Shown piece after piece: positions 33,839-63,311 of a stretch of DNA of 64,000 nt. The stretch's first letter is position 1; each line of letters begins with the position of its first letter. The stretch covers positions 14,642,197 through 14,706,196 of the forward strand of contig NC_133230.1 of assembly GCF_040436345.1 (NCBI RefSeq), in the 5' to 3' direction. The translations under genes and the position numbers were made by a program. This DNA comes from Pagrus major (lineage: Eukaryota > Chordata > Actinopteri > Spariformes > Sparidae). Under the pieces are notes generated by a model. It did not search any database. It was not told where the DNA came from and saw only the letters and a list, made by a program, of their open reading frames with translations.

Positions 33839-36800
33839 ATGAACAGAACCATCCTCCAGATTTTTGCAGTCGGAATCTGCTTTGCAATCGGTAAGAAAAA
33901 ATTTAATATTTACACTTTTTTTTTTTTTTTTTTTTTTTTTCAAATGCACGTTTTTTTGTTATTATTTTCGCGCCGTTAACTCGTGGTTAAACGCCTAAAA
34001 ACAGCCTGTTTATAACTTTTGCTCATATTTGTTAGAGAGAAGGTTTAAAAGCTGTTCCACCACTAAATCCACGGTTTTTTACATGGAGTTTGGTGTGACT
34101 CTTTTGTTGAGGTTCGTTTCCGCAGTGTGCGCAGAAATCCTGTGTTCAGAATGACTTTTTCTTATTATTTATTTAGCTTTTACATCATTAGATAAGTCTG
34201 TTGATTTTTTTTCAGATTTGGCATCTGCATGGAGCTTTTTTTGTGTGTTTTACATGACTTAATTCAAAAAAGGCTCAACTCGACGTTATTTTCCTGTCAA
34301 ACACGTTTTGTTGGAGTTAAAAACGTTATTTAGGTTATGGGAGGTGTGCTCCATGTTTTTAATGTTTGCTGGCTCAGTGATGAAGCTCGGGGCTGTTTGA
34401 CTGGGTGTGTTCATGTCTCACACCAGTGGTGTGTTCACATCCTTTTAGGGCCAGCGGGGCCCCCCATAAAAAATGTGGCCACCCTTTTGATAAATATGAT
34501 AATTTGACTTGTGGTTTGGTTACTGACACGTCATGATGCTATCTTTCCCTGTTTTGTGGTTATTGTTGACTCACTGAGCTCATTTGACTTTTTCAGATTA
34601 GCCCATGTGATAATATCGCCTGTTTGTTTGTCATATTCAAATATCATCGTCACAAACAAAAAAACTGTTGAAATAGCTAGCTTAAAGTAATGATATAGCA
34701 GATGATGGACCTATTTCAAAAATAGGGCTAGTTAGCTACAAAAAGTTGAAATAGTTAGCCAGAGGAAATAGACGAACAGCTAGCTGAAAGTAATAGAAAA
34801 CACTCAGCTAAATGGTTAGCTAACAGTTGAAAAAGTTAGGTAAAAGTGTTAAAATAATGAGTAGTTGCCTAGTTGAAACGGTTAGCTAAAAGTAAAGAAC
34901 AAACAGTTGAAATAGGGCTGGTTAGCTAAAAGTAGGCTAATAGTCGAAGTAGTTAGCTAAAAGTAATGCTCCTGAGCTACAGCCGAACTGTTAACAGATG
35001 AACAGTTAGCTGAAAGTAATGGAAAAACACTTGAAACAGTTAGCTAAATGGTTAGCTAACAGTTATGAATAAACAGTTGAAATAGTCTGCTAAAACTAGA
35101 CTTATGGACAAGTTTTGACATAATTAGCTAACAAAAACGGACACAAAGTTGACACAGCTGAAAGTAGTAATGAGGATTCACTGGTTTTCTGCATCATAAC
35201 TCACAACAAACTAAATATTTGGGGACTGTTATGTGGGCTGAAATTTTAAAGAGGGCGACTGTGACTCTGTTAATCAATAATCACCAGTTTCCTGACATTG
35301 TATAGACGAGGTTTAAGCAACAGATACAACGCAACACAGAATGAGTTACTGATTCCCACAGATGAAGCAGAGTTTACCCTCCTTTGCACATCCCAGGATT
35401 TACTCTAATGCTGTTATTACAGGATGGGGTGAGGCAGCCTGTTTGTGGTACAAAGATGTTCCAGACGTTATTAAAAGGCTGAATCATGTCCCAACCTGCC
35501 GGCTATTGCATGAGAAATTCCTCACCTTGTAAGAATTGAGGCTTTGCCCAAGTTTCAAATTCCACTTCTACAGAGGGTCTGTGCCTGGGGGCACTGCCGA
35601 GGCCATTTGTTGTGCTATTATTGTGTTTTGAGGGCTATTGTAGTCAGGATCCCCTCAGCTGTGTTTTTTTTTTCGTCTCCTGTTTCAAACCACACCCTTT
35701 CTAGTGGCGACTATGATCCCATCCTAGCTGCTTTTACATACAATCCAGTGATAACTCTGACCTTTAAGCCTTCGAATCCGTTAACTTAAATAGTTGTTTG
35801 TGACACTAGTGTGATTCACAAATGCAGATAATTACATAGTGAGGTTTCGAATCTCCCTGTACAAGCGACCATGAGGGATGTTTGTGGGTGTGTGGACTCT
35901 GGCGAGAAGTAGATTTTAGATGGTGGTCTGGTTGGCTTTTGAAGTCAACATGTTACAGGCTACTGAGAGGTTTCCCTGAGCACCCAGCTGCTAGAAAAAT
36001 AGACAAACATATTTTTTTCCTCTGTAATCCAGATGTCAGTAAATTCCTTAAGTTGGGAGGAGAAAGTGCAGAGAGGCTGTTAACTGAAGAAGACCTTCTG
36101 AGATACTTTTTACCCATTGCCTTGTCCAGCTCTATTAAAAGATGTTCTTTCTAATGGACAAACCAGCTAAAAGTAATGAGTTAACAGATTGAATAGTTGG
36201 CTAAAAGTAAATAGGGCTAGTTAGCTTAAAAGTCATAGACAAACAGTTGAAATAGTTAGCCAAAGTTAATGGAAAAGTTAGCTGAAAGTAACAGTACAAC
36301 ACTTGAAACTATTCGCTAAATGTTTAGCTAACAGTAATGAATAAACTGTTGATATAGCTGCTTAAAAGTAGCCAATAATTAGCAAAAAGTAAATGGGGCT
36401 GGTTAGCCAAAAGTAATGGACGAACAGTTGAGACGGTTAGCTTATGGTAATAAACATTGGCTGAAAGTATGGAAAAACTGCTGAAACAGCTGGCTAAAAG
36501 TAGCCTAATGGACAAATGTTTGAAAGTTAGCTAGCTGAAAAGATGAACAGTTGATTTGGTTACTAACACATCATGATGCTATTTTTTCCTGGTTGTTTCC
36601 TGTATTGTTGTTTGTTGACTCACTGAGCTCATTTGACTTTTTCAGATTAGCCCATGTGATAATATCGCCTGTTTGTTTGACATATCCAAACATCATTGGA
36701 TGATGGTTAGCTTAAGGTAATAAACGTTGGCTGAAAGTATGGAAAAACTGTTGAAACAGGTGGCTAAAAGTAGCCTAATGGACAAATGTTTGAAAGTTAG

Positions 36801-39800
36801 CTAGCTGTAAAGATGAACAGTTGAAATAAGGCTAGTTAGCTAAAGGTAATTGACAAGCAGTCAGCTGTAAGTAATGGAAAAACAGCTGAAACAGTTAGCT
36901 AAATGTTTAGCTAACAGTAATGAATAAACAGTTGAAATAGCTGCCTAAAAGTAGCCAATAATTAGCTCAAAGTAAACGGGGCTAGTTAGCTAAAAGTAAT
37001 AGAGGAACAGTTGCGATAGTTAGCTAAAGGTAATGGGCGTTAGCTGACAGTATGAAAAGACAATTGAAAAAGTTAGCTAGCTGAAAAGATGAACAATTGA
37101 AATGGGGCCAGTTAGCTAAAAGTAATGGACGAACAGTTGGAATACTTAGCTAAAGGTGATGGACAAACGGTAAGCTGAAAGTAAGGGAAAAACACTTGAA
37201 ATAGTTAGCTGAATGGTTAGCTAAAAGACATGAATAAACACTTGAAAAGGTTGCTTAAAAGTAGCCATATGGATAAACAGTTGTAAAAGTTAGCTTACTA
37301 AAAAGATGAACAATTGAAATGGGGCTAGTGAGCTATAAGTACTGGACAAACAGCTGAAAGTAGTGGAAAAACACATGAAATGGTTAGCTGAATGGAATAA
37401 ATAACTTAATTAGTTGCCTAAAAGTAGCCTAATGGACAAACAGTTAAAAGCTAAAAATAAATCCAACAAACTCAATCTGAGCTGTCGTAATTAGGCGAGG
37501 CCTATCTGATTAATCTATTAGCCATCTTTCCCTCACAAAGATAGTATAAACTATGTAAACCCAGTAAAATCCAAAACTGACACCAGAATTAACTTCTTAT
37601 GCAGGCTGGACACCCAAATATAAGATCTCTAATGTCATTATCCTTCATCTCATCTCTACCAAACACGTTTTAAGTTATATTTTCTTAATCTGTCAAACAT
37701 TTCCTCTGGCTACTGTTCCCATCAGTCTGGCTGCTCCCATCCTTCAAGGACGTCGTCTCCGTGAGCTTTAAATCAACTTTACATCCAAATGCAAACCAAG
37801 AATATTTGCACAACGCAGCCGACCCTCATTATACTTTATACAAACATGTTTGCGTATTCGTCTCACGCAACGGCGGCACCTCTCAACTCTCAGTTTGGTT
37901 TGGTGTTTTAGGCGCATGAGTCACATTGTGAGTGTAATTTCAGCTTGTTGGTGACTGTTTTTGTTGCACACAGAAACATGAGAATAATACAAAGCTTTCA
38001 AAACATGGACTGATACCCGGGCGTGTTGCTGTTGGTCACAGTTGGATAGATTCATGTCGGTGGTTATGACGAAATGTTGTCACTAGAAACATCACTTGTT
38101 TGAAGAAGAAAGAAACTATTTTGAAGTCCTTTATGAAACAAGGGTGCCCTCAGGGGGGAGGCTTTGGTACTGATACCACACTATCAGCCACATCAGAGCT
38201 CTGATGCATCTGTATTCACTCTCTTGTATTAGAAACTGAACGGCTGATGCTCCAGGGTTTGTAGTTGAGGCGACTGAGCAGTAGAGGGCAGAATAAGGCT
38301 GAGTCTGCACATCGAGGGTGATGAGTAATGTGCCACACCTCAGAGCTCAAACACTCGCAGCATACAGTTGATTACCTTTTCTTTTATTCAGTTTTAGGCA
38401 GAGAAACCCACCAAGTACTCAACTATCATCTTCAAAAGTCACTTTACTGAAGAAACGGTGCTCGTGTAACTTAACTAGACTCATTTATTGAAGTTATTAA
38501 TCGCACCACGCCTTAATTTTAAACTTTTTAAACTTAATTTGAAACAATTTCTGTTGTTTCTTCACATTTAAGCCTGAAAATCTTCATGACTTAGCTCAGA
38601 TATACATGATAAAAAGAACAAAAAGTACAGATTTTGATTGTAAATGCTACATTTTCTCCCTCACATTCACCCCTCAGAAAGTAAAGTATAATTTTCAAGT
38701 ATTATGTATTGCCTTGCTCTTTTTTAAATAAAACAATCAGCCTAGAAAAAAGGATATACATCTTTATAAATACCTTCTTTTTTTTTCCAACTTTAAAGTA
38801 TGTTGTTTCTGCGTCTCTTCCCTTGGAGGAGAAAACTCAAATGCTTTAGTACAACTGTGAGCTACTTCTACTGTTTCTATTTTATCTACATGTCCGACAT
38901 ATACTGTACATTTTACTCCACTACATTACTTTGATTAATAAAGTCACTTATTACTTTGCAGATTGAGATTTTATATACAAAATATATGACTTTAACTCAC
39001 ATTTTATCCACCTGGGCAGGTCTTAATCTACCTGATTTGATAGCCTCATACTGTACGTACTGGAAACTCTGCTGTAGATACATAATGTATATAAATATAT
39101 ATAGATATAACTTGTTAGATATAATATCAATTTGCTGGTTACTGTGACAGTTGGTGTCGGACATTTTTCAGGACTTCCGGCGAGTCGTCCTCACTGAAAG
39201 GCCGTGGCTGCTTTTCTCAGGCGTGTCCTCTATGTTATGCAAGAGTGTAACAGTGTGTGTTTGTTTGTTTGTTTTTCACCTCTTATGGAGAGAAGTTTAT
39301 TTAATTCACGCTAAACAACTTGTAAACAACTGGAGTAAATCAGGGATGCCCCCCAAATTTTGGCCCACCAGATATTTCTTAGTGAAAACCATTAAGAGTC
39401 TAAATAATCGAATAGTTTACTCATTAAAGCTCTTGCCAATTAATGATTTTTATATTTTAAAATAACTTTAAAAGATATATAAAAGGAAGGAAGCCATGTC
39501 ATTTTGTGGATTTAGCATTCAGTCTTTATCAAGTATGTTTTCATCTGTGTGGAGGGTGTTGACGATGGTGTGGTAAGTTTCCAGTCAAGACAGAATTGAT
39601 TTGAACTACCTGCACTTGAACAACACGTACCAGGACGAAGGTTTTTGACGTGCATGAGAGAGAAAAAATGTCACACCTGTACTTTTTACCAACAAATGAA
39701 CCCTGCAGACATGTAGCGCTACATGTAACGTGCCAATCTTATCTGCCTCTTTTATCCAGAACCGGATCTTTTAAAGAAAAGTCCTGTTGTGTCTAGAATC

Positions 39801-42800
39801 TGTTGCAAACAAAGTCTGGCTGTAACTGAACACGATTAGCTTAACTGTCCCCGTGCAACCGCGTTGAACTCCCCTCACCTCCACAGTGATTTTTTTTGCA
39901 GAAATGCAGATTTGTTTTTGCATTAATGACCCAGTAGTGTTTCGAGGATCAGGTCAGACTTGATTTCAGATGTCTCCTCCCAGACAGCAGCCAGGGAAAA
40001 CGGTGACGTGAGCAACATGTCAGTCAGCATTGCAGAGCGATGAAGTCAGGTGCCAGGTGTGGCGGCACCGAGGTCATGTGACACTTTGGTACTCGGTGAT
40101 TTAACTTGTATTGCTGGTTATAAGTGAAAAATCCAGTTATTATCTACTCGACTCATTCTGATGATTTTTAGTCCACAAAACATTTCTGTAGCTTCACAGT
40201 AAAAACAGCTTTGCATAATTGTCCTAATCAACTGAAGTAGATGAAGACTGAGTGGATAATGACTGAATTTTAATTTTGGGGTGAACTTATCCTTTAAGAC
40301 ATGAGTCACAGAACATTATTGCAGAGAAAGTGAGTCAGATATCTGATATCGGTGCATTTTTTTTGACACATTTCTGGAGGTTTTTAGTCAGATAAAGACA
40401 TTTTTCTTTCATCATCTGTTTCATCTTGTATTTTTTTAACTGAATGTTTGAGAATATCTGTTATTAGGAGCAATGAGACGACATGACGGTCGGCAAAAAG
40501 TCTCTAAATTGTGAGCTCTACTTGAACTCAGGTGTAACCGAAACCGGCGTGACAGGGGTGTGGAGCACACAAAGGTGTAGGTGTGTCAGGATTATCCCGC
40601 AAGATTGTGATTGAAATGGCGCTGATCCACAGGATCATATGACTTCTATTTTGTCACATGTTTATGAATCTCTTGACACATTTGTTTGTTTTAATTTTTG
40701 TGCTGGAGTTTAGTAACTTGTGGTGTTTCTCAATTCTCCTCCATTAACTCGTGTTCGTACCGCAGACGTGACATAGGTCGAGCTGAAAATATCACTGCAT
40801 GTGACTCTTGAGTGTGATGTGATGTGTGGACGGTATTACACACAAGTAGAGGAGTTACTCAGCTGGAAAAAATGTTGATCAATTCATGAGTCAGCTCAGC
40901 AAACATGTGAACAATACAGCAATAAATCTTTAGAAAAATAATACTTTTGCTTTGTCAAATATTGAATTAGCCGTCACCTCTACTTGAGTAACTGCTTCAC
41001 ACGTTAGCCTGTGTGAATGAAAACTTAAGCTTCAATGTGAGACTATGCTAACGTGATATTATTCATTATTTCTGAAAGAAGAAGAAATGGCACGTTGTTC
41101 TTCTTAAAGATAAAGATATATGTTTATATCTCCAGATTTTAATTTGAAACTGCATCAAATACCAGCAACCTTAATATGCCTGATGCTTACATCATGGTCC
41201 ATGCAATATTCCTTGAGAAATAAATGAAAATGTCAACAAAAAAAATGGCCTGTCTCTCAATGTTAAGGAAATTGAGGAAAAAATTCCCGGATCCGCACCA
41301 AAACTTCTTGAGGTCTATTCTGGGCCGAGACCGATCCTGCATACAAGTTTCATGGAAATCTGTTGAGTAGTTTTTGTGTAATCCCTGTCGCAAACCAACA
41401 AAACGTCATTTTTCATGTGTTTCCAACGCAAAATTACAATTATGATGAAACTAAGGAAGGAAATTAATGAAAAATATTGTATTTAACAATTTTAGTCAAC
41501 AGATTAAAATAGATGACGAAACAAAAACAGATATTATACATCACATATATATATTTTATCTCATAACATATGTATATGTATGTACGCATTTATATATAAA
41601 CAGTGTTGTAATTCTGTCTCTACAAAATAGCAGCACATCGTCTCTCGACAGACAGATCTGATCGTGTCTACTCGTCTCTTAAAGAGAAACTATAATCACT
41701 CAGTCCGACCTCGTCTTTGTCTTTCTCAGGCTCTTATCAGTCAGTGTTTGTCGGCCTGTCTGTTTGAGGACTATCACTCGGTTCCTTTACACTCAGGCAT
41801 TTTAAAGCTACACCCTCACTTAGTCTGGTATGACCAGCAGTTAACGGTAATGTTAGCAAAGAGTCAGATAAGATACGAAGCCGTTTCCTCTTCTGTCCGT
41901 ACCACCGTTTGCACTATCATGTTGTACTCGCCACTTGTGCGCTTTAAAGTTTTGTTAACCTTTTTTCTTTGGAGAGCCAAAACCTAAAATTTGATGGTGA
42001 GCTCGGGCTAAAAGCAACATGTTGTTCTGTGTTGTTACGACACAAAATGGTACAAGGATCCTAATTAACCTGAAGTGAATGACTTCCTTTGCAAAGTGTC
42101 TCTGCCTGTCGTGCTCGGATTATGAGAAACAATTAATAATAAGGAATCCTGAATATTTTAAGGCTATTTTACCAATTATATGAATCCATGTCCACATACC
42201 AACCCTCATCATGGCGTGCAAATCTGAGATGGGAGGGATTTTCCCTGCTGAGTCTTTAGAGTCATTGCGAAAGGCCTCATCGTACGCTGCAGGAGCTGAA
42301 TATTGTATTAATTTTATTTTTTTTAACAGTTGTGCTGAGAGTTTAGTAATTACGACGTTACAGTTTCGATCTTACAGTGATTTTTACTTTTCCGCTTCAG
42401 GTGGCACTGGTGCAAATTCACAAAATTGAGGCGACATATATGAATTTTATTTAAGAGGAGGGACTAATAAACTTACTCTAACTCTTTTTAATGGTTTTAA
42501 ATCACCGAGTGAATCTTGAGCAAACAATAAAGAAGAACAGGGAACATTACAGACACTTTTTATTGTAGTTTTTAGGATTACCGTGTGTACTTTCCGTCAC
42601 AGCTCCAGTCTCGGCCTCATTCTGTAAACTGGAGCGACTGGTTCCAACAACAACAGTTTCACCAGAGTTCCCTCCAGTTCTTCAGTATCTCCCCTCCCAT
42701 CTAATCATAGAGTAACAAATGAGGTTTACAGGTGCCCATTAGCTCCTCAGGTGTTCCTGAGACACATTATTCTACGATATAAGTATTTTGTATCACCTTG

Positions 42801-45645
42801 ACTGACTTTTGTTGGAGGTTTTGAGCTACAATCCTTTTAGCTGTTGGACCTTTTTGTCTGTATAAAGACACAGCTGGCACGCCGACCGTGTTAAAACGTG
42901 ATTTTAGTGTTATATCTCTAACATTTTGGGACGTGTTAGGGAAGGATTTTAAAAAAGAAAGAAAATCAAAGCAGCAGAGGCCGAGATATCCTGACTTCAT
43001 GTTCCCAATACAGCTCGAAAACACTAAAAATCCTCCTTTTCTGGTAAAAGCCTATTCGGCACAATTAATTATGTCTGTCTCGAAGCACAAACATCTTATT
43101 ATTTCATTACAAAAGTTTTAACCGAGGCTGTTTAAGCAGGGGGATTTTATGAAATCAAACCGACAACCTACGTAAGTTTAAATACACAAAGTGGAGGAAA
43201 AAACATAAAAAAGTTCATTGTTCTGACGCATTTAAAAGCTTTGAATTTCAGACATGGGGAACGACCAAAGTCCGGCCCCTCTTGGCACATCCAGACTGGT
43301 AATTTTAACCAGAATTTGAGACTTGCAGTGTGGTCAGATTGTTTTTGGTGGACACTTAATTCCCACAATCCAGAGCACAAAGGAAAAACACAAAACAAAT
43401 GTTGGACGGTGGCCTGAAAGTTTCAGGAAGATCAGAGAAATTAATTCCCATCAACATAAATTAAATTCCAAACTTTGATTGATGTGCGTGTGCATACCTG
43501 CCTGTCTTAGATCACCTGTTCTCATCACCTGTATGTTGCGTCACACTAATATAAAATTAAGTTTAAAATCAATGAAGTTCCCCATTTTTTTAAAGCTGTG
43601 GTTGTGAGTTAATTGTTGCCATTTTTTATTGCTTATTCGGTAGCTGTGTGATTTTTATTTATTGAAATTTAATTCCTGCGTCCCTTTTTATTTCCTGATG
43701 TTTGAATTTGTTCATGTTGCATGTCGTGCACTGTGCACGTGAGCTCGTTCCAGTTGGCCAAAGGCAAGCTTATGTCAACATAGCATGACTGTAAACCCAG
43801 TTTACCCAGATGCAAACTAATAATTAAATGTTACAGGGTTTAAGCAGGGTTAAAGACTGTGGTAACATGTAGCAGCTGTTAAATGTAACTCGTAAAATGG
43901 CTCAGGTTTGTTTTATGCAGCTGAAAATCCAGAATTTGTCTGAAGGTTTTGCTTGAATCAGAGGAGATGACCTCCAGGTGATACCAAGAGCTGGTATGAC
44001 GTTGACCATTAACCTCCTCTGTATCACAGGTCAAAGGTCACCCACTTGTCTTGCCCACAATTATAGTATAGAGATCCTGTCTAAATGCCAAACTGCACCA
44101 TCTAAGTGGATGGTAAACACTGAAACAGTCTCTGTTCTCAGCAAAAGCTTTAATTTCAGACGAACATGAAAAGATGTTTACTTGAATGCAGACATTTCTG
44201 TTTTAACTTCCTAATTATAGCCTGTTGCTAACCCGACTATTCGTCTTGTTTCCCCGCTCCCTTCCCATCAATCTCTCTCGATAACAGGTCAAGCTCTGCA
44301 GTGCTACAAATGCACCATTGGTGTTGGAGATCTGTGCATTACCAGCACAATCACCTGTGAAAGTGGAGAACACTGCTACAGTGGTGAAGGGAAAGCAGGT
44401 AAGGTGACTAAAAAATCTCACTGGACGACATTCTCAGAAAAGGTTTTCATAGACACTCAGATGACACTCAGCCAGCTCTCAAAGTGCAGCTCTAAAGCAC
44501 AACCTCATGCTTGTGAAAGCATCATTATCAAAATAATTAAACTGGTCGATCAACAGAAAGCTTTGCAAGAAAGCAACCAGAAAAATAAAAAAAACATCCT
44601 CCGTCATTTAATACGCTAGTTAGAAAGTGAACAGAGGTTAAGATGGTTAGCTAAAAGAATTGGATGAACAGTTTAAAAAGTCAACGTAAATTAGCTGTTG
44701 AAATAGTTGGCTAAGAATAATGTGAAACATAGTTTAAGTAGCTGGCTAAAAACTGTTGTAGTTAGCTAAAAGCTGTTGTAATAGTTAGCTCTTTAAATAG
44801 TTGATGTTGAAGTAATGTTTAAAATAGTTAGCTTTAAATAAGCAGTTGTAATAGTTTTCTTAACGTTATAATACAGTTATAATAGTTGCAGATATAGACA
44901 CAAACACATGTGGGGCTTTATGTTTATATCAGGCGTGACAGATCACAGAAGTGCCTCTTACCATTCTGAGATAGTTACTGAAGTGTTTTGAAATGGAGAT
45001 TATGATCGCTGATGTCTGTCTTCACTCACAGTAGATATACTCAAGTATCCACAGGCTCTCCTTTAAGATGTTGGCGTTAAATAATGCTTCCAGTCTAAGT
45101 CTGACAGCTGATTCATAATATCTTGACTGCCTATTTCCAAAATGGATTTAAAGGTTTGTTGTTTGTCCAAAAACAACAATAGCGGCTCCTCAAGTGGTTA
45201 GCATAGACGCTAACATAGCATCTGTTATATCATCACCTGGAGAGTTTAAAAACCCGGGAATCCCCAAAACTTGAGTAAGAAGGTCTTCACCCTTTAGCAA
45301 CATGCAGTGTATGAGTGCATACCACTCACTCTGCAAGCCAACCAACCATTTAAGCCCAACACAAAGAACAATAGACACTAACAGTGATCGTGTGTTTGTT
45401 GTCTCTCCACAGCTGGCGTGGTGGATATCAAGAGGAAGGGCTGTCTAGCAGTGGCCGAGTGCAACAAGACCAAAGATGTGAACATCCCCGGCACCAGTGC
45501 CAATTCTACCACCCTCTACAGTCTGACCAAGACGTGCTGCGACACCGACCTGTGCAACGCCGCGCCCGGTCTGCCCGGGACCTCCGGGCTCAGCCTGGCT
45601 CTGGCCACCGTCAGTGCTCTGTTTGTGGCCAACATCCTGGTTTGA
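33839..45645 (+). CDS. Ly6/uPAR family protein, ly6-A
   Basis: Exons 33839-33890, 44288-44398 and 45413-45645 join in phase to 131 residues. Exon 1 encodes a signal peptide (MNRTILQIFAVGICFAIG). Exon 2 starts the mature chain with LQCYKC, the LxCxxC signature of Ly6 three-finger domains. Exon 3 holds KGC, AEC and TKTCCDTDLCN, giving ten cysteines in family order. N-glycosylation sequons: NKT and NST. The tail (GLSLALATVSALFVANILV) is a hydrophobic GPI-attachment-type signal after a small-residue stretch. Expected location is the cell surface by lipid anchor; the ligand is unknown. Exon 1 lies 10.4 kb from exon 2, far more than in its neighbours; exon size and phase support the pairing, but only a transcript can prove it. 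No one-to-one ortholog is claimed. Confidence 0.78.
33891..34659 (+). other. Start of ly6-A intron 1
   Basis: A T-run at about 33,919-33,940 follows the donor. The rest is unremarkable AT-rich DNA up to a ~140-bp segment (34,506-34,645) that is repeated at about 36,550-36,705. Confidence 0.5.
34660..37470. repeat. Degenerate minisatellite, ~35-bp unit
   Basis: Dozens of imperfect copies of a unit like agttagctaaaagtaatgga + caaacagttgaaat fill 34,660-35,170 and 36,155-37,470. A non-repetitive 1-kb segment separates the blocks. Higher-order duplication is visible: about 36,440-36,540 (gtatggaaaaactgctgaaa, then agcctaatggacaaatgttt) recurs at 36,720-36,830. Short satellites of the same unit are at 44,640-44,860 and 50,965-51,075. 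Confidence 0.8.
37471..40114. other. Gene-free part of ly6-A intron 1
   Basis: No exon recognised. Contains a family F repeat at about 38,760-39,010 and a 'gcagtagagggcagaa' motif at 38,278 of the kind often seen at fish repeat ends. Confidence 0.5.
40115..40298. mobile_element. Short family B element
   Basis: About 184 bp with 'cacaaaacatttctgtagcttcacag' and 'caactgaagtagatg', ending gggtgaacttatcctttaa. These match the left arm and inverted right end of the element at 733-1,572. Confidence 0.65.
41187..41405. repeat. Interspersed repeat with LINE/SINE-like 3' end
   Basis: Contains 'tattctgggccgagaccgat', 'caagtttcatggaaatctgt' and 'gtagtttttgtgtaatccc', followed by 'aaaccaacaaaac'. I recognise this as the conserved end of a widespread fish retroposon, possibly RTE-related. 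The class is tentative. Confidence 0.45.
41406..44287. other. Distal part of ly6-A intron 1
   Basis: AT-rich; no exon, RNA gene or complete element recognised. It ends in a pyrimidine-rich acceptor (ctctctcgataacag, ending 44,287). Confidence 0.45.
44640..44860. repeat. Small array of the 'gttagctaaaag' minisatellite
   Basis: Several degenerate copies of the unit from 34,660-37,470, now in ly6-A intron 2. Confidence 0.6.
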
Positions 45646-48415: not shown

Positions 48416-49958
48416 ATGGGAAAGATCCTATTTGGAGTCATTGCAGTTGTTGCATCTATCATGCTGGGTAAGTTTTGACAAAAACATCTGGCAAACCTTC
48501 TGGCAGTGGTTAAGATATTTTAAGACTTTTTGACAAAAATAGGAGGAAACTCTTGTCTTCTCTGTTTTGTTTAAAGCTTTGATATATGTGTATATATATT
48601 GAAATTATATAAATAAGACAAGAATGCAAATATCACAGGTAAATTCAACTGTCAAGTAATTTTGTCTGCAAAAAACTGCATTCTTATCGCAAAATCTTCA
48701 TCTTCATCACACGATGAAGTTACAAATTTCAGGTTTTCTGAAGCGACTTTTTAAATCAGTTGTCGGTTCAACTTTATTATTGAAAAAAAAACTATTTTGA
48801 AACTTGAAATTCCCTTTAACTTCCATCGAATTGGGCTGAAAACAAAAAATCTTGGAAGCAAATATCTCAATATGCTTCAGCAACCAGAGGAAATTGTGAC
48901 ATTGTTGTCTTTGTTTGATTTGATTTAGGTTGAACCGACCATTTTTAAACAAAATTACACTAAAAAGCTACTTTAAGTCCCCACTGAATACCATCCTTTC
49001 ACACCTAATATTTTCCTCACCAGTAAAGATTCAGATCATCTTGGCATCTCCCGATGTGTCAGTTAGAGATTGATTGATGTATTGAAACCTGGGCGCGGTC
49101 CAGCGATGTTTAGTCACAAACAACACTGGGTGTGGTGGTAGTACAAAACACTTGCTGCTGTAAAAGTAAAGTACATTACACAGTTTTCGAGGTGTGTTCA
49201 TGTTGATATCAAAAATATGAACCACTGAAATCAATTAAAGCAAGAAAAGTCGGTGTTTAACGTGTGTTAAGCTCATTTCCTTCAAATATCTGATGACTAC
49301 TGTGGAAATTCAGTACACACAATATGAAATATTGATATTTGTATTCATGTGCATGTGTATTTGTGTGTTTCAGTGGAGTCCCTGACCTGCAACCAATGCC
49401 AGTTTGGCGTGTTAGGTTTCTGCCTCAGCAATACTGAGGTAACCTGTGCAACCAACACCAGCCAGTGCTTCAGTGGAAAAACAAGTAGGTCTCCTCCTGA
49501 TTGCCTAAAAGCTCACACCCTTCCCATTTAAACATTACATCACAGCACAGGCATGATTCAGTTAAAAACACTCCCAAATAAGTCTGAAAGTGAGAGAAAG
49601 TGTATTTTTAAAGCATGTTAACACATCAGCAGCACAAGTAAATGTAGTTAAATGAAGTACCAGTACCTTAAAAATGTGTTATTGTCCTTCCTCTTTCTAA
49701 CACGACCATTTCTCCTCAGCCTTCCCATCAATCTCCTCCGCCGTGGGCTTCAACACGCTGGGCTGCATTGAGAGCACTTCCTGCAACGTTACCACCAACA
49801 ACACCATCATTGGTGTCGAATACAAGTCCGTGGTCACCTGCTGCGAAACAAACACGTGCAACACTGTTGCGCTAAGCGGCGCCCCGTCCACCAAGATGAC
49901 CTTTACCGCCGCCATCGGTGCAGCCGTCCTGGCCTCCGTGTGGGGAAGCATGCTGTAA
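48416..49958 (+). CDS. Ly6/uPAR family protein, ly6-B
   Basis: Exons 48416-48467, 49374-49484 and 49720-49958 give 133 residues. Signal peptide MGKILFGVIAVVASIML; mature start VESLTCNQC. Exon 2 adds GFC, TC and QC; exon 3 adds LGC, TSC, VTCCETNTCN, making the ten Ly6 cysteines. Sequons include NTS, NVT and NNT. The tail (MTFTAAIGAAVLASVWGSML) is a GPI-type hydrophobic signal. Exon sizes 52 and 111 nt are identical to those of the other array members, and intron phases are all 1. Expected to be a glycosylated GPI-anchored surface protein; the partner is unknown. A likely end signal is AATAAA at 50,312. Confidence 0.88.
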
Positions 49959-50317: not shown

Positions 50318-50339
50318 GAAAATCTTTTACACTTATTCC

Positions 50340-51343
50340 CTCTGCCACTTGCTCTTGCTTCAACAACATCCATCCTTTAATACTTGCTTATCCTTTGAGG
50401 GTCTTTACTGACCAGTGAAAAGTAGCTGTAAATAAAAACTGTTAAAATAATAGATCGTTTGGTATTAAAAACTTTTTACCACACGCCTGCCCTAGCCTGT
50501 TAGTAGTGCTACGCTAACCAAGACATAAAGTTAGCTCTACAATTTAGGTAAAAATGAGTATTAAGTGTCCCAAAATAACAACCAGCAGTGCAGGTGAAAA
50601 GCACAGACGTCCCTCCGACCCCCCAAAAGTAACGTTCACATAACAAACAGCATTTGGTTACAGTGTAAACAGGCAAAACCTCCCAGCGAACCAACAATGG
50701 GTATCAGCTGTCACCATGTCACCATTGGCAGTGAAACGCCAAACCCACGCCAAACTGATCACTAAAGCATTGATCACAGCTTCTGACAAATATTTACAAT
50801 TCATTAAAGACACATTAACAATGTGAGCTGTCTTATCTTAAAATGAGTGTTTCCTCCTTTACCAGAAGCTGCGCAAAACGTGCCACCGCCCTCCAGTCGG
50901 CTGTCAGATGTAGCAAAAACTTTCAGCTTATTATTTCAGTGGTTGTAATGTATCCATTGCTCTGGGCTAAAAGTAATGAATACATAGTTAGCTAAAAGTA
51001 ATCATAAACAGTTTAAGTAGTTAGCTAAAAGTAATGAATAAACATTTGAAGAAGGCAAAGTTAGCTCAAAGTACACTAAGCGATTAAATGTCCAGATCTG
51101 TCAGTTCAGCCCGGCACTACTTGACCAAACCAACCTATATGTGGATGATTCAGTTGTTTAAAAGTGTAACAGTTTCATTTCATATAGGCCTGATTAAAGT
51201 GTTAAATAGGCCCAGCGAGGGCTGGAAACGGCTTTTCTAAGGTCTGTACTGTAAAAGCTTCAGTTCATTTTGCAGGAATGCCCCGCCCCTGACAAACTTT
51301 CTTATCACTCCTGTTGATGTGGATGACTGATTACTCCCTAGAG
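50340..51343. other. Intergenic, ly6-B to ly6-C
   Basis: No gene seen. A few copies of the 'gttagctaaaagtaatga' minisatellite unit lie at about 50,965-51,075. Confidence 0.5.
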
Positions 51344-51474: not shown

Positions 51475-54218
51475 ATGAACACATTTCTGTGGAGCTGTGG
51501 AGCATTACTGATGCTGTTTGTTACAGGTAGGAGTGTTTTTTTTACTGTATTTCTTTAGATGGAGATCATCACCTTTCTGTGTTTTGCTTAAATCAAGGTC
51601 AGTAAGATTTTAAGCTTGTTAAATCACGTTCAGGAATTATTTGAAAGGTTCTCACGCTTCTGAAACTCACGAGAAATTCATGAAAAACTTTTTTTTTCGA
51701 CAACTGCAAGTCTTAAATTCACAAACTCTTAATCTTATTGGACCCATGTAGTCTCCATACACTGTGTAGAAATGGGATATGCTGCCATGATACGTGTTGT
51801 CAGAGCAGGACTGTGCTGTAATTTAGTTTAATTACATTTTTAATTTGCGATGTTATTTGAAGCAAGCAGAAGGAAAGGCCTATACGCACCTATACTCGAG
51901 AAACATCGAGAGAAAATCACATCAGCTCATCGTATTTTATTTGCATTTTTTGACCAAAAACACTGTTTCTATGTTTATCTTGAAAACAAGTTGCTGCTAA
52001 ATATAATGTTTTAATTGATAATCATGATGATAATGATGATGATTGGTTGGAGGAAGAAACCTGAAAACAGCTCAAAATTTGAGCAAATATAAACCACAAC
52101 TTTCTTTATGTAGCTCAAGAATATGTATGTGTGCTGTTTCTGTTGCTTGCATCAAAGTCATATCCTGGATTGAAGATAATGATCTTTAGCGAGTGTTCAC
52201 CTTGACAGGTTATGAAAAAAAAGTGAATGTGTACTTTGTGATTACAGCAGGTGATTGTTTGACAAAGGTGGAACTTAATGCAGTCAGATATTTGTGCCTA
52301 TTGACTCAACTTTGTTTCCTTTGTTGTGTGATAAAGGATTTATACTCCGAGATCCAAAAACATTTCTTCTTTACAATTTTCGTTTTGTTGTCGTCTCCTC
52401 TCACAGTGGAGTCCCTCAGATGTAACACCTGTGATGTCAGCATCCTCGGCTCCTGCCTCGGCGCAACTCCTGTAAACTGCTCCACAACTCAGAACATGTG
52501 CTACAGCGGCGTTGCCAGTAAGATGAACAATGGATGCCCAATGATTTAATAATAATTCATCCACCTCTGAAATACTTCATGACCACAGAGACATAAAAAA
52601 CAGGGAAATTGGAAATTGAAAATTGATTTCTTTTCATTCTGAATTAATGAATTTTGAATTCTGGCTTACCTTGTCAAAAAGCTGCTAAATCTCAGAGATT
52701 TTAAATAATTTGGTTTTCAATTCAAACTTTTAAATTCCCAATGTGCACCGTATACCGTCAGATGCTCTCGTACTCCAAACGTAATAAAACAAAAAATGTA
52801 GACAGCAAAACAATCAAATTTAAAGATACTTCACAATCAACATCACAACAATCTAACATGTTATATCACATGTGAAAAACATGTAAAATTAACTTACATA
52901 ATGAATAAATTCACTCGCCACACGTTTATCCACATGTACATATCGAGAGGAAAAACATACTTTAATAGCAGTGATAACATTTAAAGGAATGACTGACTGA
53001 ATAAATGAGTTAATGTTGTTCCTGTTGAAGGAAATAATTGATTAAATGGTTGATAGATGAGAAATAAACTGATTGATGCAAAGACTGTATCTTCTCAAAT
53101 AAAAAATGTCAAAATAGAAGCCGGGTCTCAAATAATGGCCGGGAAAAAACAAGGATGGATAAACTTCTGGTGGCTGTCATATTATGTATAATAATGTATA
53201 TTTTGAATTCTTATTAATGTTAATAAATTCAAGTTAGCATGCTAACTTGAAAACTAGCTCTGGAGTTATGCTGCCCCCTGTGGTTTTGGAGCTGCCGTTG
53301 ATTTCTGGCAATATTCTACAAACTACACCTTTAAGCATTGTTGAACATCTTTTATGATTAAGTAGGTTTGAAACAACGCGTTGCTCAAACAGGTCTTTGA
53401 AAAGATGACTGAACTGGAAAAGTTTGAGGGTTACTTATTTCAAGGCTAAAAGTCATAACAGCAAATGTGTGAGTGTTAAAGTTAACAATCCTGTTTTTTG
53501 GACTCTCTAATCAGATTGATTTCAGTTGCATGGAAGAAATATTGTCTATGTAACCACAGCTAATGAGTTTTTCACAACACCTACCAGGAAATGTTTAACA
53601 ATAAAGCCCTAAAGAAATGCTAGAGGGCTTTTCAATTTGAAATGGATACAGGAAGTGAAAATAGATTCAGGTTTCCAGGAATGCCGGACATCCAGATTAT
53701 GTTTCTGTGGCCATGTGGTTATCTACCATCACATATTATATTTCACATATGAATAACTGAATGACAGATGCTTTATTTGCACAAGTATATTACGTTTAGC
53801 TAGAATTTAGATTATATGTATCAGAACAATCAAATTTAAAGAGATCAGAATCAGCTGTCAAAACTTCTGTGTAAACCTTCTTCAGGTCATTAACATACCT
53901 AAATTCCCAGACACAAAATTGAGCTCATGACCTCTGTGCTCTCAGTTTATGAAAAAATAATCACACTAAAGATACCATGTCTCGTCTTTCCTGCTTCCAG
54001 CGTTTACTGGTGACCAGTTGCCAGTCCATGCAAAAGGCTGCATAGAAGCAACTGCCTGCATAAATGTGACGAATGTGCCCATCCTGTCCATTAACTACAC
54101 CATCATCAGGCACTGCTGCACCACCGACCTGTGTAACGCAGCCGCCTCCGTCCAGCTGCCTCTGACTGCAGCTCTGGGAGCTGTGCTGGTTGCTCTCTGG
54201 AGCCAATGGGTCCTTTAA
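51475..54218 (+). CDS. Ly6/uPAR family protein, ly6-C
   Basis: Exons 51475-51526, 52407-52517 and 54001-54218 give 126 residues, the shortest of the array. Signal peptide MNTFLWSCGALLMLFVT; mature start VESLRCNTC. Exon 2 adds GSC, NC and MC; exon 3 adds KGC, TAC, RHCCTTDLCN. Sequons: NCS, NVT, NYT. The tail SVQLPLTAALGAVLVALWSQ is close to those of ly6-D (SIQLPLTAALGAAVMAIWS) and ly6-E (SVQLPLTVAIFAAILSSLWG), so C, D and E are probably the most recent duplicates. The exon 2 donor is GCCA|GTAAGA. Intron 2 (1.5 kb) is AT-rich with no recognised element. The role is inferred only from the fold family. Confidence 0.88.
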
Positions 54219-56134: not shown

Positions 56135-59100
56135 ATGAAGAAGTTGATCTGGGTCTTTGCAGCATTGATGGCAATGTTTGTTACAGGTAAGAGCATCGAA
56201 CAGGAGGCACTCTTGAGGAACATTATATCCAATGCTTTTACTTCAACGTGATCACCAGTGACAACTTTGAATCTTGTCTTTTCAGATGTTTAATGACGCA
56301 GTTAAAATGTGTTGATACATGTCACATGAGGAAGACTTTTTGGGCTTTTTTAATATTCTGTAAGGTTAAATCAGCTTCCAACCAAAGGTCACAAAGCTTC
56401 CTAAGACGATACTGTAGCTAACACCGAGGACACAAAGGTGATTTGGGGTTTTAACTGCACCAAGAGTTTAGATTCAGATATTTTCATACACTAAATCAAT
56501 CTGAAGACATGAAAAGAAGAGATTTAGTACTTATAACAGTGTAGAAAATAACTATTATGACACCATAAGGAAGAAATTAGATGACGTTATAACAAAGGTG
56601 TACAATCTCGGTGTCATCTTTGACTCAGAGTTATCTTTTGACACTCAGGTGACTAAAGTGGTGCAGTCCTGCTTTGCCCAACTGAGACAGCTAACGAAGA
56701 TCAGGTCATTCTTGTCCTCTGCAGACTTAGAAAAGGTTATCCATGCTTTTATCTCCTCCAGACTGGACTACTGCAACGCACTTTATTCTGGTATCAGCAG
56801 GCGAAACATCCAACGACTGCAGCTGCTACAAAATGCTGCTGCTAGGTTTTTAACACGTACTAAGAGATGTGACCACATTACACCAATCCTTGCTGCCCTT
56901 CACTGGTTACCTGTGAGTTTTAGAATTGATTTTAAGATTTTACTGCTTGTTTTTAAAGCCTTGAATGGTCAAGGTCCTGCCTATATTTATGATCTGCTGA
57001 CTCCTTATGAGCCTGATCGCCGCCTGAGATCCTCCAGCAGGGCCCTCCTAATGGTTCCAAAATCTCGACTTGTCACTAAAGGTGACCGGGCCTTTGCTGT
57101 TCGGGCCCCTCGGCTATGGAACTCCCTGCCTGGAGATCTCAGGCAGGCAAACTCAGTATCCTCTTTTAAATCTCTTCTTAAAACTCACTTTTATACTATG
57201 GCCTTTTCTTAATTGATGGTAATTGCTGTAACTATTTAAATTGTTTTAAATATTATATCTCTGTTTGGATTTTAACTAATTATTTTATCTGTTTTATTGT
57301 AAAGCACTTTGTAACTTGTTTTTGAAAAGTGCTATATAAATAAAGTTATTATTATTATTATTATTAATCACACTTTAACGCTTAGTAAAGGTTTGACAAT
57401 GATAATAGGTAAGTTAGTTAAACTCATAAGGCTTTTATTAACCTTTTTAGCAAGCTATACACTGTTAACACGTTTCCTATAAGTTCTTATAAATGTCTTC
57501 TAACAATAAATGTGAGTATTATGTTATCATTAACACTTATATAGTGTTATTGTTAATAAGCATCTTGTATGGGTTACTTGCAGAGCCTTATTCCCGATTT
57601 ACTAATGCTGTTTAAAGAAAGTAGTCCCTTCCCTTGTTTCTCTCTTCTATTTTGCTCTCCTAAATCTCTCCTTTCCTCTGGATCACAGGTGAGTCCTTGA
57701 CCTGTAACACCTGCAAAGTGTGGTTTGCAGGTAGATGTCGTTACAAATCGACTGAGACCTGCAGCGACTCTGAGCCCAACTGCTACTGGGGAAAAGTGGG
57801 TGAGTATCATTTTTGTAATCATCTGCTGTCCTCTTCAGTCCATTAAAAAACCTAGAGTGTTGGATGTGTGTTAATGTCTGTAATTAGAATGGCCCTGGTG
57901 TGTCCGGAGCAATTTTCTCAAACTATGTGATGCCCAAGATAAAAAAAACCTGCCTTGACAGCAGAGACCGAGGTGTGGCCGGGCATAAAACACACCTGAG
58001 CACTTGAAACTGATTTATTTAACTCTTTTGGGCTGGGTTTGGGTGCAGGTGGACGGCTCAGACAGGCACTTAAAACATTTTTGAACCAGTCAGCTGATTT
58101 TCTGACTACGTGACTCATGAATGCAGTATTGTTTTGGAGGTCAATAGATTAGCTTCTTGCAACACTTACATGTGCCAACAAAGAGGCCTTTCAAAAGAAT
58201 TGTTGTTTTAACTTCATTACAGAAGCAATAGTTGCCAGTTCAGCAGGATTGTTAAATAAACAGGCTATGTTAAATAGGCAACACAAGCAAATCGAACGGT
58301 AAGAGACCAAACATGAAGGCTAGGCTAATCTAATGTCTTTATTTTAAAGGGAAAGGTCGAAGTATTTCAAGTAAAACCTTTTTTGCTTCCCTGCTGAGAG
58401 TTAGAGGAGAAGATTGACACCACCCTCATGCTTATGCGCTAAATATAGCTAAGCTAGCAAGCTGCCAGTTAGCTTAACTTAGCATAAAGAGCTAGCCCAG
58501 CTCTGTCTAAAATATCACTCTCTAACTAGTTGTAGCTTATTTAGCTGAACACAAACAGACGTGTAAAAACAACAAGTAATAGATAAACGGGAGACTCCAG
58601 GAAGTTAGCCTACTGCGCCTTGTTGTTGTTAGCTAAGAAACTGTTATAGGCCTGGTTAGCCTAGCATGAAACTTCTAGTTAACAACATTTTTGGTTATGT
58701 ACAGATTAAACAAATACATACCGTATGTATAATTGAGCTTTTAAGAGCTAGCGGATTAATTTAATGTGGAAAGAGCCAAGCTAGCTGTTTTCCAGTCTTT
58801 AGGCTTAGCTATGCTATGCTAATATGCTAACTGTCTCCTAGTTGGCTCTAGCTTCATATTTCTGGTATCAATCTTCTCGTCTAACTATCAGAAAGTGAAC
58901 CATATTTTAGTATACTGTTAATAAAAGGGTATCACTATATCACATACTTTTGATTTGTAGGTGCTTAAAAATGCTAAGCAGCAGTAGCATAGGCTACATT
59001 CCCACAAATAGGCCTAATTTATGTCCTAGAGAACAAAGTCAAAGGTGAAAAATGTAAAATAGTGCTACTTAACCTTGAAGTAACCAGACTCAGTAAAGCC

Positions 59101-59820
59101 AGAGTTTATGTTTGATGTCTGTGAGTCAGTCTGCAGCACTTTAACACTCTGTACCTTCAGCCTTTGTTGCTGTTGCTATGACTTGCCTGTGTTGTGAAAG
59201 GCCACAACTCAGCACAATCCCTGTCTTTGCACAAGCAAATAGTATAAACCCTCTAATGGCACACACACAACCATGCAGAGATCCAGTTCGGGCCAACTGG
59301 GGTTAGACATAGTACACATAGCCAACATATAAGCGTATAAAATTCAACACATTGTTACAGATAAAATCATTAGCCTAGTGTTGCCAACAGTTGTGGTTTG
59401 CAAACCTTCCTTAAAAGGAAGCAAAATCAGTGTGTCATTGGAGCCTCTGGACTAAAATACCAGTGGTGGCCCCACCCAGAGATAAATGGATGGATGGATG
59501 GATGGATGGATGGATGGTGTCAACGTGTACTTTTTATTTTCTATGTTTGAATCTAACAAAGGCTGCTGATCTTCATGTCCCCCTATTCAGCCTTCAACAA
59601 CACTCAACTGAGCATACTGAACCAGGAGACTCGAGGATGTCTGGACTCTTCGCTCTGCAACCAAACTGAATCCGGAGCCCTCCTGACTGCTGGATACACC
59701 ATCACCAGGACCTGCTGCAGCACTGCAGACCGCTGTAACGGAGCCGCATCCATCCAGCTTCCTCTCACTGCTGCGCTGGGTGCTGCTGTAATGGCCATTT
59801 GGAGCACTAGAGGCCTGTAA
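56135..59820 (+). CDS. Ly6/uPAR family protein, ly6-D
   Basis: Exons 56135-56186, 57689-57799 and 59591-59820 give 130 residues. Signal peptide MKKLIWVFAALMAMFVT; mature start GESLTCNTC. Exon 2 adds GRC, ETC and NC; exon 3 adds RGC, SLC, RTCCSTADRCN. Sequons: NNT and NQT. Hydrophobic tail SIQLPLTAALGAAVMAIWST, as in ly6-C. Exon 1 ends LFVTG-like ATGTTTGTTACAG, nearly identical to ly6-C exon 1, supporting a recent duplication. Intron 1 contains a truncated LINE and intron 2 a family A MITE; both are on the outside of intact splice sites. Expected to be a GPI-anchored surface protein. Confidence 0.88.
56597..57367 (+). mobile_element. 5'-truncated L2-like LINE
   Basis: An open frame of ~200 codons (56,598-57,212) encodes the C-terminal part of a non-LTR reverse transcriptase ORF: NLGVIFDSELSFDTQV, SRLDYCNALYSG, LQLLQNAAARFLT, HWLPVSFRIDFKILLLVFKA, and APRLWNSLPGDLR. 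It ends with a short UTR and (ATT)n tail (about 57,344-57,367) after gctatataaataaag, typical of L2/CR1-group elements in fish. The catalytic part of the reverse transcriptase and the endonuclease are missing, so it is dead. It lies in sense in ly6-D intron 1. Confidence 0.9.
58344..58925. mobile_element. Family A element, copy 5 (expanded)
   Basis: Left end ttaaagggaaaggtcgaagt; 'ctgctgagagttagagga', 'gttagcttaacttagcata', 'gagctagcccagctctgtct'; inverse half 'ggctctagcttcatatttct', 'aatcttctcgtctaactatc'. Located in ly6-D intron 2. Confidence 0.65.
59487..59517. repeat. (ATGG)n microsatellite
   Basis: About seven ATGG units, 70 nt upstream of the ly6-D exon 3 acceptor. Confidence 0.9.
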
Positions 59821-59965: not shown

Positions 59966-59971
59966 AATAAA
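59966..59971 (+). terminator. ly6-D polyadenylation signal
   Basis: AATAAA in aacataataaaacttg, about 145 nt after the stop. Confidence 0.5.
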
Positions 59972-60229: not shown

Positions 60230-63200
60230 ATGAACAACCTTTGCAAAGCAGTGATCGTCCTGAGTGCCTTCATTGCAGCGGGTAAGATGAGAATAACATT
60301 TAATTTCCGAGGTGAAAAGTTTGTTTTAGTTTTATTTATTTGTTAAGCACAGTCTAACACTGTATAAGACTAATGTTGGGCAAAATAAACGACTGTTATT
60401 TTCTTTCTTTCATTTTTAATTTAAACTAGTACAACAGGTTTATTATGATGGACAGAAATAAATGTTCAGGACTAAGTGTTTTTTTAGCCAAACCAATAAC
60501 GATGAGTGGTTACATTAATGCTGTTCATTATTAAGTGTCTGGCCGAACACTAATTGCCGCAGGTCTAAACAGGATTTACCGTTCAAATGAACCTCAAAGC
60601 AAACCAGATTTTCAGAAATGATATTAAGAAGGAAGTCTGTAGACAAAAACAAAAGAAAAACCCAAAAAGAAGAATCAGCGTATTATCTATTTGCCTAAAA
60701 TATAGAGATGCATGAACTCTCTAGAAATGAAAGAAAGTGTGTAAAGAAGAGACTGAAAAGAAAACAACAGAGGAAGCCTTCGGAAAACTAACATTTCGTT
60801 TCTGGGAATAACAGTAGATCAGATACAGACGATGGCATTCGTTAGTGAGTTGTTATCTTTGCTCGGTACTCTTTCGTTTTCTTCCATACATGTTCCAGTC
60901 GCTTCCTGCTTCAGCGTAAGAGACTTTTCAAGTATCAACAATGCTTACATTCAGATTTTTTTATAACTTGAGTACTTTTTAAGATATTGTGCTTTTTTGC
61001 AGTGTAGGTAAATGGAAGCAATGGACATAAAATGCATACTGTACATACATACTGTACATTAGAGACGACTCGAGTCATTGTGACTCGCACACGAGTTGAC
61101 TCAAGTCACTGCTGACATGACAGAAAATGACTTAAGACCTGACTTGGACTTGGAGCTAAATACTCTGGGATTTACTTGCGACTCAGACCAAATGACTCGA
61201 GTCACATGTCTGCTGTACACACTGCACATACCTCGGTACTGTATTTACTCTACATACATACTGTACAAATATTACTGGCACACACACACAGACTGTATTT
61301 TCTATTTACTGCCTCTACTGTACAGGAGTTAACCTTCTCTTGGCTGTAGCTTCGTATTAACAGACAGATATGGGAGTGATATTGATCTTCTCAACCAACT
61401 CAACAAGGAAACAAGTAGGCATATTTCAAATGGTTCTGTTTAATTGTTAGGTCATCCTTCAGTAGACTACCTGGAAACTGTAATTTGTGTACTCTTTGAT
61501 GTGTATTTCATGTCACATAAGACAAAGATTTCTGACTCTTTTGGACTTTCTTTTGTCCGATTCTTCCAAATAGACCTGAAAGACCCAGATGTGTTTTAAT
61601 AGGGCACGTTTCAGCATTTTAGATATATGATCCCACCATTTAAAGATGCTGTGATGTGTTTTACTTTGTTTTCGTTTTACTTTGTTATTTGTTTATAAAT
61701 TTTCTTCAGAAAATGCAAATCATTTACTTAAAACTGCATTTAAATAACATTTGGTACTACCAGAACATTTTATAAACAAAAACAAAGTAAAACACATCAC
61801 AGCATCTTGTCTTTAAATGGTGGGATCATATCTAAAATGCTGAAACGTGCCCTATTAAAACACATCTGGGTCCTTCAGGTCTATCTGGAAGAATCGGACA
61901 AAAGAAAGTCCAAAAGAGCCAGAAATCTTTGTCTTATATGACATGAAATACACATCAAGAGTACACAAATGACAGTTTCCAGGTAGTCAACTGAAGGATG
62001 ACCTAACAATTAAACCATTTGAAATATGCCTACTTGTTTCCTTGTTGAGATGGTTGAGAAGATCAATATCACTCCCATACCTGTCCGTTAAATATGAAGC
62101 TACAGCCAAGAGAAGGTTAACTTAGCTTAGCTTAGCTTAGCACAAACACTGGAAACAGGGGGAAAGAGCTAGCCTGGCTCTGTCCAAATCTGACTCTAAT
62201 GTTTTTCTTCTGTCTTTCCATTAAACAGCACAAAGCCTGACCTGTCGCCAGTGCGTCATTGGTATATTTGGGTCGTGTTTCTTTGGGAGCGACGTCACAT
62301 GTAATAATGGGACCGAGAGCTGCTTCACTGGAGAAGCACGTAAGGAAACCGACTGCATCACTCTGAAGACACAACAAAGATTGAGCCGCCATTTTTGACA
62401 GCATACTAGGCTAGCTGTTAAATATGTCACTGTAAAATGTATTCATCAGGCACAAAAGACAAAACTGAATAATCACGTAAGCTAATGTTACGCTGAATGC
62501 TAACAAAGCATCGGCTAATCATTCATAGGCTAATTAATCTCCCACTATCTAGGTAAATAAAACACATATTAGCTTACCTTTGCGGGTGACAGTCTATTTG
62601 CTGTTGATGACATCACACACCAGTCCCTGATTAGCCTAGCCTATGTAGCAACACATTAGCCTCAGATAGCTTACATATAGCTAGCTTGTTTAGCAGCTAA
62701 CTAAATTAACAAATCACAAACCAGCTGAACTAAAAATTATACCATCCAAGAACGACCAAAACGGAGTCAGATTACGTAAAACTACATCTCCCACGTGCCC
62801 CACAGATTGGAAAACAAAATGGCGGCTGTAACATTGTCAGTTGAGCTCCACAGCTAACTGACAATGTTACGGCCGCCATTTTGTCCAATCTGTGACTGAG
62901 CAAACATCCACAGGCGGCTGTTAGATTGTCATGAAAGCGTAATTCTTGGATTGTATAATTTTTTTTAGTTCAGCTTGTTTGTGAATGTCGATTTGTGATT
63001 TAGTTAGCTGCTAAACAATGGAGAGGATTAGCCTTCCTTAAATTTTTACATTTGCTGACATCCATCTGTGTTTTCGATCCTCTCTAGAGTTCAACGCCAC
63101 CGGGGCAATCAGCCTGCACATCCGCGGCTGCCTGGACACGGACCTGTGTGGGAGAACGTTGTCTGGCAGCCTCCTGGGTGCCGGCTACACCAGCAGCTTC

Positions 63201-63311
63201 CAGTGTTGTACAACCAACCTGTGTAATGGAGCCACTTCAGTCCAGCTCCCTCTGACGGTGGCCATCTTTGCTGCCATCCTGTCCTCTCTGTGGGGCTTGT
63301 GGGAGATGTAG
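60230..63311 (+). CDS. Ly6/uPAR family protein, ly6-E
   Basis: Exons 60230-60281, 62229-62339 and 63088-63311 give 128 residues. Signal peptide MNNLCKAVIVLSAFIAA; mature start AQSLTCRQC. Exon 2 adds GSC, TC and SC; exon 3 adds RGC, DLC, FQCCTTNLCN. Sequons: NGT and NAT. Tail SVQLPLTVAIFAAILSSLWG, then LWEM and stop. No clear TATA box lies at the spacing used by the other four genes (only a GATAAA at 60,072). Intron 1 carries an 0.8-kb palindrome ending next to the exon 2 acceptor; intron 2 carries a foldback repeat. The last codons, stop and first 3' UTR bases have an inverted copy in intron 2. Expected to be a GPI-anchored surface protein. Confidence 0.87.
61328..62121. repeat. Large inverted repeat (palindrome), ~0.8 kb
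   Basis: The left arm (61,328-~61,699) and right arm (~61,771-62,121) are reverse complements with only scattered differences, both ending in GTTAAC. The loop is about 70 nt. Shared examples: 'ggacaaaagaaagtccaaaa' (right) against 'ttttggactttcttttgtcc' (left), and 'atagggcacgtttcagcatt' (left) against its inverse on the right. The outer ~100 nt of each arm is family A MITE sequence; the inner ~250 nt is not. Confidence 0.93.
62015..62190. mobile_element. Family A fragment, copy 6, at the exon 2 acceptor
   Basis: 'gaagctacagccaagagaag', 'ttagcttagcttagcttagc', 'gaaagagctagcctggctct' match family A. It forms the right end of the palindrome and stops less than 50 nt before the ly6-E exon 2 acceptor at 62,228. 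Confidence 0.65.
62691..63013. repeat. Foldback element with inner hairpin
   Basis: Outer arms: 'tagcagctaactaaat' (62,691) pairs with 'tttagttagctgcta' (ending 63,013), continuing through 'caaatcacaaa' / 'tttgtgatt'-type matches. An inner hairpin at 62,801-62,894 pairs cacagattgg...caaaatggcggc with gccgccattttg...ccaatctgtg. Intermediate segments do not pair. Confidence 0.8.

Follow-up and report, generated by a model that had tools for sequence, protein, structure and literature searches.

The window, a stretch of 64,000 nucleotides, carries five Ly6/uPAR (LU) genes, G1 to G5, which lie head-to-tail on the plus strand and span positions 33839–63311. Read from the DNA alone, all five adopt the same arrangement of three coding exons separated by phase-1 introns, with the LU domain divided over exons 2 and 3. 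Specifically, G1 opens with a 52-nt coding exon for the signal peptide (33839–33890, donor TCG/gtaaga), continues through a 111-nt exon 2 that holds the first half of the LU domain and five cysteines (44288–44398), and ends in a 233-nt exon 3 that contains the second half of the domain, a GPI-type tail and the stop codon (45413–45645). The same 52- and 111-nt lengths recur in the other four genes on the same strand, with exon 3, stop included, measuring 239 nt in G2 (48416–48467, 49374–49484 and 49720–49958), 218 nt in G3 (51475–51526, 52407–52517 and 54001–54218), 230 nt in G4 (56135–56186, 57689–57799 and 59591–59820) and 224 nt in G5 (60230–60281, 62229–62339 and 63088–63311). GT is present at all ten donors and AG at all ten acceptors, the introns range from 235 to 10,397 nt, and the joined exons form an open frame to the stop in every gene, predicting precursors of 131, 133, 126, 130 and 128 residues for G1 to G5, respectively. 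This reading of exons and splice sites bears out, in five of five genes, the original prediction of 52-nt and 111-nt exons, phase-1 introns and ten cysteines, and both outer bounds given there, 33839 and 63311, prove exact.

The exons were delimited by separate searches. For exon 2, an AG-111-GT pattern was sought around each LxCxxC motif with the length fixed at 111 nt beforehand, and the single exon 2 returned per gene is accordingly a check on the 111-nt figure without a listing of alternatives. A scan over 34 kb for start codons that precede a hydrophobic segment and a donor in phase 1 gives eight rows, five of which are 52-nt exons, one ahead of each exon 2. An alternative first exon for G1 at 40658–40712 was rejected as weaker, lacking the common start context and having a poorer donor. 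Several in-frame acceptors are possible for exon 3 of G1 (four), G3 (five) and G4 (four listed), and the first was chosen each time. In the excerpts from which the literature is cited here and below, the LU gene archetype comprises three exons, with the signal peptide in the first and the LU domain across the next two, together with phase-1 introns and an occurrence in small clusters (PMC6600238, PMC4839075). Because three exons and phase-1 introns are the textbook Ly6/uPAR structure, the architecture of the array is ordinary, and the exact recurrence of 52 and 111 nt in five genes is what tandem copies under selection for frame and fold would be expected to show.

At the protein level, each mature domain contains ten cysteines in the Ly6 order, and an eleventh lies in the signal peptide of the G1, G3 and G5 precursors. 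The gaps between successive cysteines are 2-7-7-6-(18 to 21)-5-18-0-(4 or 5) in G2 to G5 and 2-7-6-5-17-5-24-0-4 in G1. Two gaps within exon 2 of G1 are each one residue shorter than in the other genes, and the constant 111-nt length of this exon therefore masks a two-residue shift in G1. The domain begins with LxCxxC in all five proteins and closes with CC-x4-CN in four, the G4 spacing being x5, one residue longer. Additionally, every protein has a single LU domain, two to three N-glycosylation motifs in its mature part and, as judged by eye, a hydrophobic C-terminal tail of the GPI type.

Membership of the Ly6/uPAR family is supported by Pfam UPAR_LY6, which exceeds the cut-off over the whole protein in G1 (E 3.8e-8), G2 (2.8e-7), G3 (1.2e-9) and G5 (8.7e-7), with no match in G4. 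Activin_recp in G1 and Toxin_TOLIP in G3 also pass the cut-off, with weaker scores than UPAR_LY6; both are related three-finger families, and cross-matches are common in this fold. When a profile of four genes is compared with the fifth, scores range from 39 bits for G1 to 79 bits for G5, and G4 reaches 60 bits against the profile of the other four. On this profile comparison, G4 is homologous to G1, G2, G3 and G5 despite the absent Pfam match. An AlphaFold model of G4, built from two sequences, is of poor confidence (mean pLDDT 47.9); its top matches in the PDB are the LU structures uPAR, LYPD6B, LYPD3 and GPIHBP1, none of the 293 fold matches reaches E 0.001, and at such low confidence fold matches carry little weight.

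Upstream of the coding exons, a TATA motif lies 117–131 nt before the ATG in four of the five genes (G1 at −119, G2 at −117, G3 at −131 and G4 at −127); G1 has two extra TATA motifs at other distances, and G5 has none in the 260 nt upstream. At the local frequency, TATAA within a 15-nt window has p 0.027 and its occurrence in four of five genes about 3e-6, values to be read with a window that was picked after viewing the data. Exon-level profiles compared with six-frame open stretches of at least 15 residues across the whole window reveal no sixth or degenerate Ly6 copy, each profile giving five strong matches and the best other match having E 0.083; a motif search likewise finds no further Ly6 copy.

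The five proteins have diverged extensively. Aligned with their tails, the mature sequences are 32–45% identical across all pairs; within G2 to G5, identity is 43–45% in three neighbouring pairs and 39% in the other three, and G1 is the outlier at 32–37% to each of these. Such a distribution may perhaps reflect stepwise duplication that left neighbours most alike, a pattern that one in 12 orders gives by chance. In the mature domain, each of the ten pairs has a dS that either reaches at least 1.03 or exceeds what can be calculated, with dN at 0.64–0.88; both are estimates in the Nei–Gojobori style and rough at such distances. Such far-diverged or saturated synonymous sites show that the expansion is not recent. 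Plus-strand self-BLASTN matches are confined to exon-3 stretches and dispersed repeats, and the resulting lack of common introns, together with the high or saturated dS, excludes a recent expansion. The lineage-specific expansion that was originally proposed for this fish is possible, but not as a recent event.

A separate observation concerns the GPI-signal tails at the ends of exon 3 in G3 (54001–54218) and G4 (59591–59820), where 17 of 26 codons are alike, as against 32 of 82 in the mature domain (Fisher p 0.024, for the most extreme pair, picked after looking). A tail that is more alike than the mature domain is the opposite of the expectation for a cleaved signal. Recent gene conversion of the tail was considered and rejected, as the synonymous divergence of the tail is also high and the pattern is absent in pairs that include G1.

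Two other genes lie upstream of the array on the same strand. The nearer is csnk2b, followed from an internal coding piece to its stop (21735–24357) and identified by Pfam CK_II_beta on three open frames; the stop at 24357 is presumed, its last exon having been read by the C-terminal sequence of the protein and the position counted by hand. From this position, 9.5 kb separate csnk2b from the start of G1 at 33839, placing G1 downstream. Farther upstream is a prrc2-type gene (7154–15807, plus strand), which comprises a BAT2_N domain at 7154–7396 (Pfam E 6.9e-31) and a long open frame ending at 15807; the open frame at 12685–15807 has no Pfam match, and prrc2a is a candidate name, given from position alone. 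In the gap between csnk2b and G1 (25.4–33.8 kb), none of nine open frames exceeds the Pfam cut-off, a search that short exons could escape; the sub-cut-off matches there are the BTK motif and 7tm_2, in two open frames. The CK_II_beta matches and the gene models agree with the predicted adjacency of the array to csnk2b, with the array on the downstream side and on the plus strand.

The locus is very probably an old tandem array, adjoining csnk2b, of genes for GPI-anchored three-finger receptors. We infer that each gene is expressed from its own promoter and spliced as modelled, giving a small cell-surface protein. The signal peptide would come from exon 1, and a single Ly6/uPAR domain, its three fingers held by five predicted disulfides, from exons 2 and 3 combined. 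The hydrophobic stretch that closes exon 3 would serve as the signal for a GPI anchor, positioning the mature, putatively N-glycosylated proteins on the outer membrane. Through their variable and diverged fingers, the proteins may each engage different binding partners; known roles in the superfamily are complement control, channel modulation, gamete binding and Wnt modulation. The array itself would go back to ancient tandem duplications next to csnk2b, which perhaps proceeded step by step, and the copies would since have drifted apart with frame, intron phase and cysteines held constant. In other respects, the array is an ordinary receptor-family cluster.

The position beside csnk2b invites comparison with the mammalian MHC class III region. 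Mammalian CSNK2B precedes LY6G5B on one strand, and chimeric transcripts join the two genes (PMC2562388, PMC3626593), in agreement with the adjacency of CSNK2B and LY6G5B on which the original prediction drew; the array and csnk2b are alike to this pair in neighbour, order and strand. Transcripts that retain intron 1 or are fused to the gene upstream are a feature of LY6G5B and LY6G6D. The mammalian class III cluster (LY6G5B, LY6G5C, LY6G6C, LY6G6D, LY6G6E and LY6G6F) likewise consists of LU genes, most of them with three exons, in the sections available of PMC4839075. The five array genes all read in one direction; for human LY6G6E, by contrast, transcription in the reverse direction is described as theoretical (PMC2562388). 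A further point of agreement is the linked prrc2-type gene, since BAT2 stands in the human class III gene list and, in zebrafish, a bat2-like gene and two ck2b loci are located on chromosome 19, with a third ck2b on chromosome 23 (PMC1309616). Together, these positional features argue for the reading that we hold first, though tentatively, namely that the class III LY6G5/LY6G6 genes have their fish counterpart in this array, with an ancestral Ly6 gene next to csnk2b and a separate expansion in each lineage.

In the excerpted part of a 2005 zebrafish MHC survey, LY6G5B, LY6G5C, LY6G6C, LY6G6D and LY6G6E are marked as not found, and the survey leaves undecided whether class III LY6 genes are confined to mammals or have diverged beyond recognition (PMC1309616). 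A survey in which these five genes are marked as not found fits the earlier remark that genes with such short exons are easy to miss. No teleost Ly6–csnk2b locus appeared among the papers listed by searches of the open-licence literature, and a term search of three MHC papers (PMC10751288, PMC12619710 and PMC4810163) returned no mention of ly6 or csnk2. The csnk2b-linked array is a candidate answer to the question left by the 2005 survey. Moreover, its position downstream of csnk2b provides a concrete locus for testing the origin of the class III LY6 genes in other vertebrates, and the array supplies models of genes whose short exons may escape annotation.

Comparison by sequence points in part elsewhere. 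Against PDB sequences, among which there may be no LY6G chain, the array profile matches LYPD3 best (8.6e-8), followed by CD177 (5e-6), TEX101 (3.2e-4) and uPAR (6.1e-4); G1 alone matches BMPR2 and then PSCA, and G3 alone matches TEX101 best. A second comparison set comprises eight proteins, entered as provisional sequences without recourse to a database, and three PDB domains, with LY6G5B, LY6G6C and LY6G6D as its class III members. Within this set, the array profile scores 36.6 bits for SPACA4, 27.9 for Bouncer, 26.8 for TEX101, 26.7 for LY6G6D, and 25.9 and 16.5 for the second and first domains of LYPD3, respectively, and lower values for PSCA (14.6), LY6G5B (9.0), CD59 (7.2), LY6G6C (3.9) and LY6E (−1.9). 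Taken singly, G1, G2 and G3 match SPACA4 best, G4 matches LY6G6D and G5 matches TEX101, and eight of the nine cysteine gaps of G1 equal those of the provisional SPACA4 sequence.

These scores bear on the class III reading in both directions. The provisional LY6G6D sequence, the best match of G4, agrees with the array in the five residues that separate the first and second cysteines of exon 3, but it contains eight cysteines as against the ten of the array. LY6G5B, the direct neighbour of CSNK2B in mammals, and LY6G6C offer weak sequence support for kinship, again on provisional sequences. The phylogeny proposed as a check was run on 16 LU domains and left the array unplaced, none of the 13 inner branches being supported and the array being set apart by a branch of its own in 9% of 200 bootstrap replicates. 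Orthology of the array with LY6G5/LY6G6 is, as far as the sequences can tell, not favoured. Order and strand agree with the original link to these genes, but descent does not follow from the nearest matches, which are LYPD3, CD177, TEX101 and uPAR, or from the unsupported tree.

A somewhat doubtful but still plausible alternative assigns the array to the branch of SPACA4/Bouncer and uPAR/LYPD3/TEX101, the site beside csnk2b being either a separate arrival or the former home of that branch. Its best evidence lies in the PDB matches, all four of which belong to the uPAR/LYPD3/TEX101/CD177 group (human 19q13), and in the provisional SPACA4 and Bouncer sequences, which score above the three LY6G members tried and, like each array protein, have a single LU domain. 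Gene structure argues the other way: in the excerpts available, Spaca4 of the mouse and bouncer of zebrafish both consist of a single exon, and one exon likewise encodes each mature Bouncer protein of medaka (PMC8488580, PMC10267171). Because their LU domain occupies one exon and that of the array is split over two by a phase-1 intron in all five genes, direct orthology with SPACA4/Bouncer is disfavoured. The affinity, as judged from profile scores on provisional sequences, is a lead only. The preference of G4 for LY6G6D and the unsupported tree likewise weigh against this branch. Domain number differs as well, with at least two LU domains in uPAR, LYPD3 and CD177 and one in each array protein; TEX101 is given one LU domain in the same excerpts (PMC4839075), yet it matched the array profile in two stretches. 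The Ly-6 cluster of zebrafish chromosome 21 resembles the array in being contiguous and in its ten-cysteine LU domains, but the portion available describes seven proteins with two LU domains each (PMC6600238), as against one here.

A further reading is that a Ly6 array beside prrc2a–csnk2b was ancestral to bony vertebrates and gave rise to both the mammalian class III LY6G genes, which stayed in place, and the intronless SPACA4/Bouncer fertilisation genes, which left and lost the intron within the LU domain, an outcome that we regard as improbable. If it were true, the fish array would be the intron-bearing stem of the egg–sperm recognition protein Bouncer, with G1 closest. Least probable of all is that some of the five genes are pseudogenes or unexpressed relics, as the missing Pfam match of G4 and the missing TATA motif of G5 might suggest, since five of five keep intact reading frames, splice sites and cysteines despite the far divergence of their synonymous sites.

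Several repeats and other features are located within the introns and spacers of the array. A degenerate minisatellite-like repeat of gttagctaaaagtaatg units occupies 34512–37453, within the 10.4-kb first intron of G1, and occurs again at 50985–51079, upstream of G3. Intron 1 of G4 contains a 235-codon open frame (56505–57212) with no Pfam match, which may be akin to a LINE reverse transcriptase in its C-terminal portion. In intron 1 of G5, nested palindromic arms of 131, 79, 59 and 32 nt, 96–97% complementary, extend over about 800 bases (61327–62122) and resemble a foldback element. An inverted copy, 61 nt long and 89% alike, of the segment 63282–63342, which covers the last part of G5 exon 3, its stop codon and the beginning of the 3′ UTR, lies in intron 2 (62751–62811), next to a 29-nt palindrome with arms within 62814–62884. 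The G5 pre-mRNA could thereby form a foldback across exon 3.
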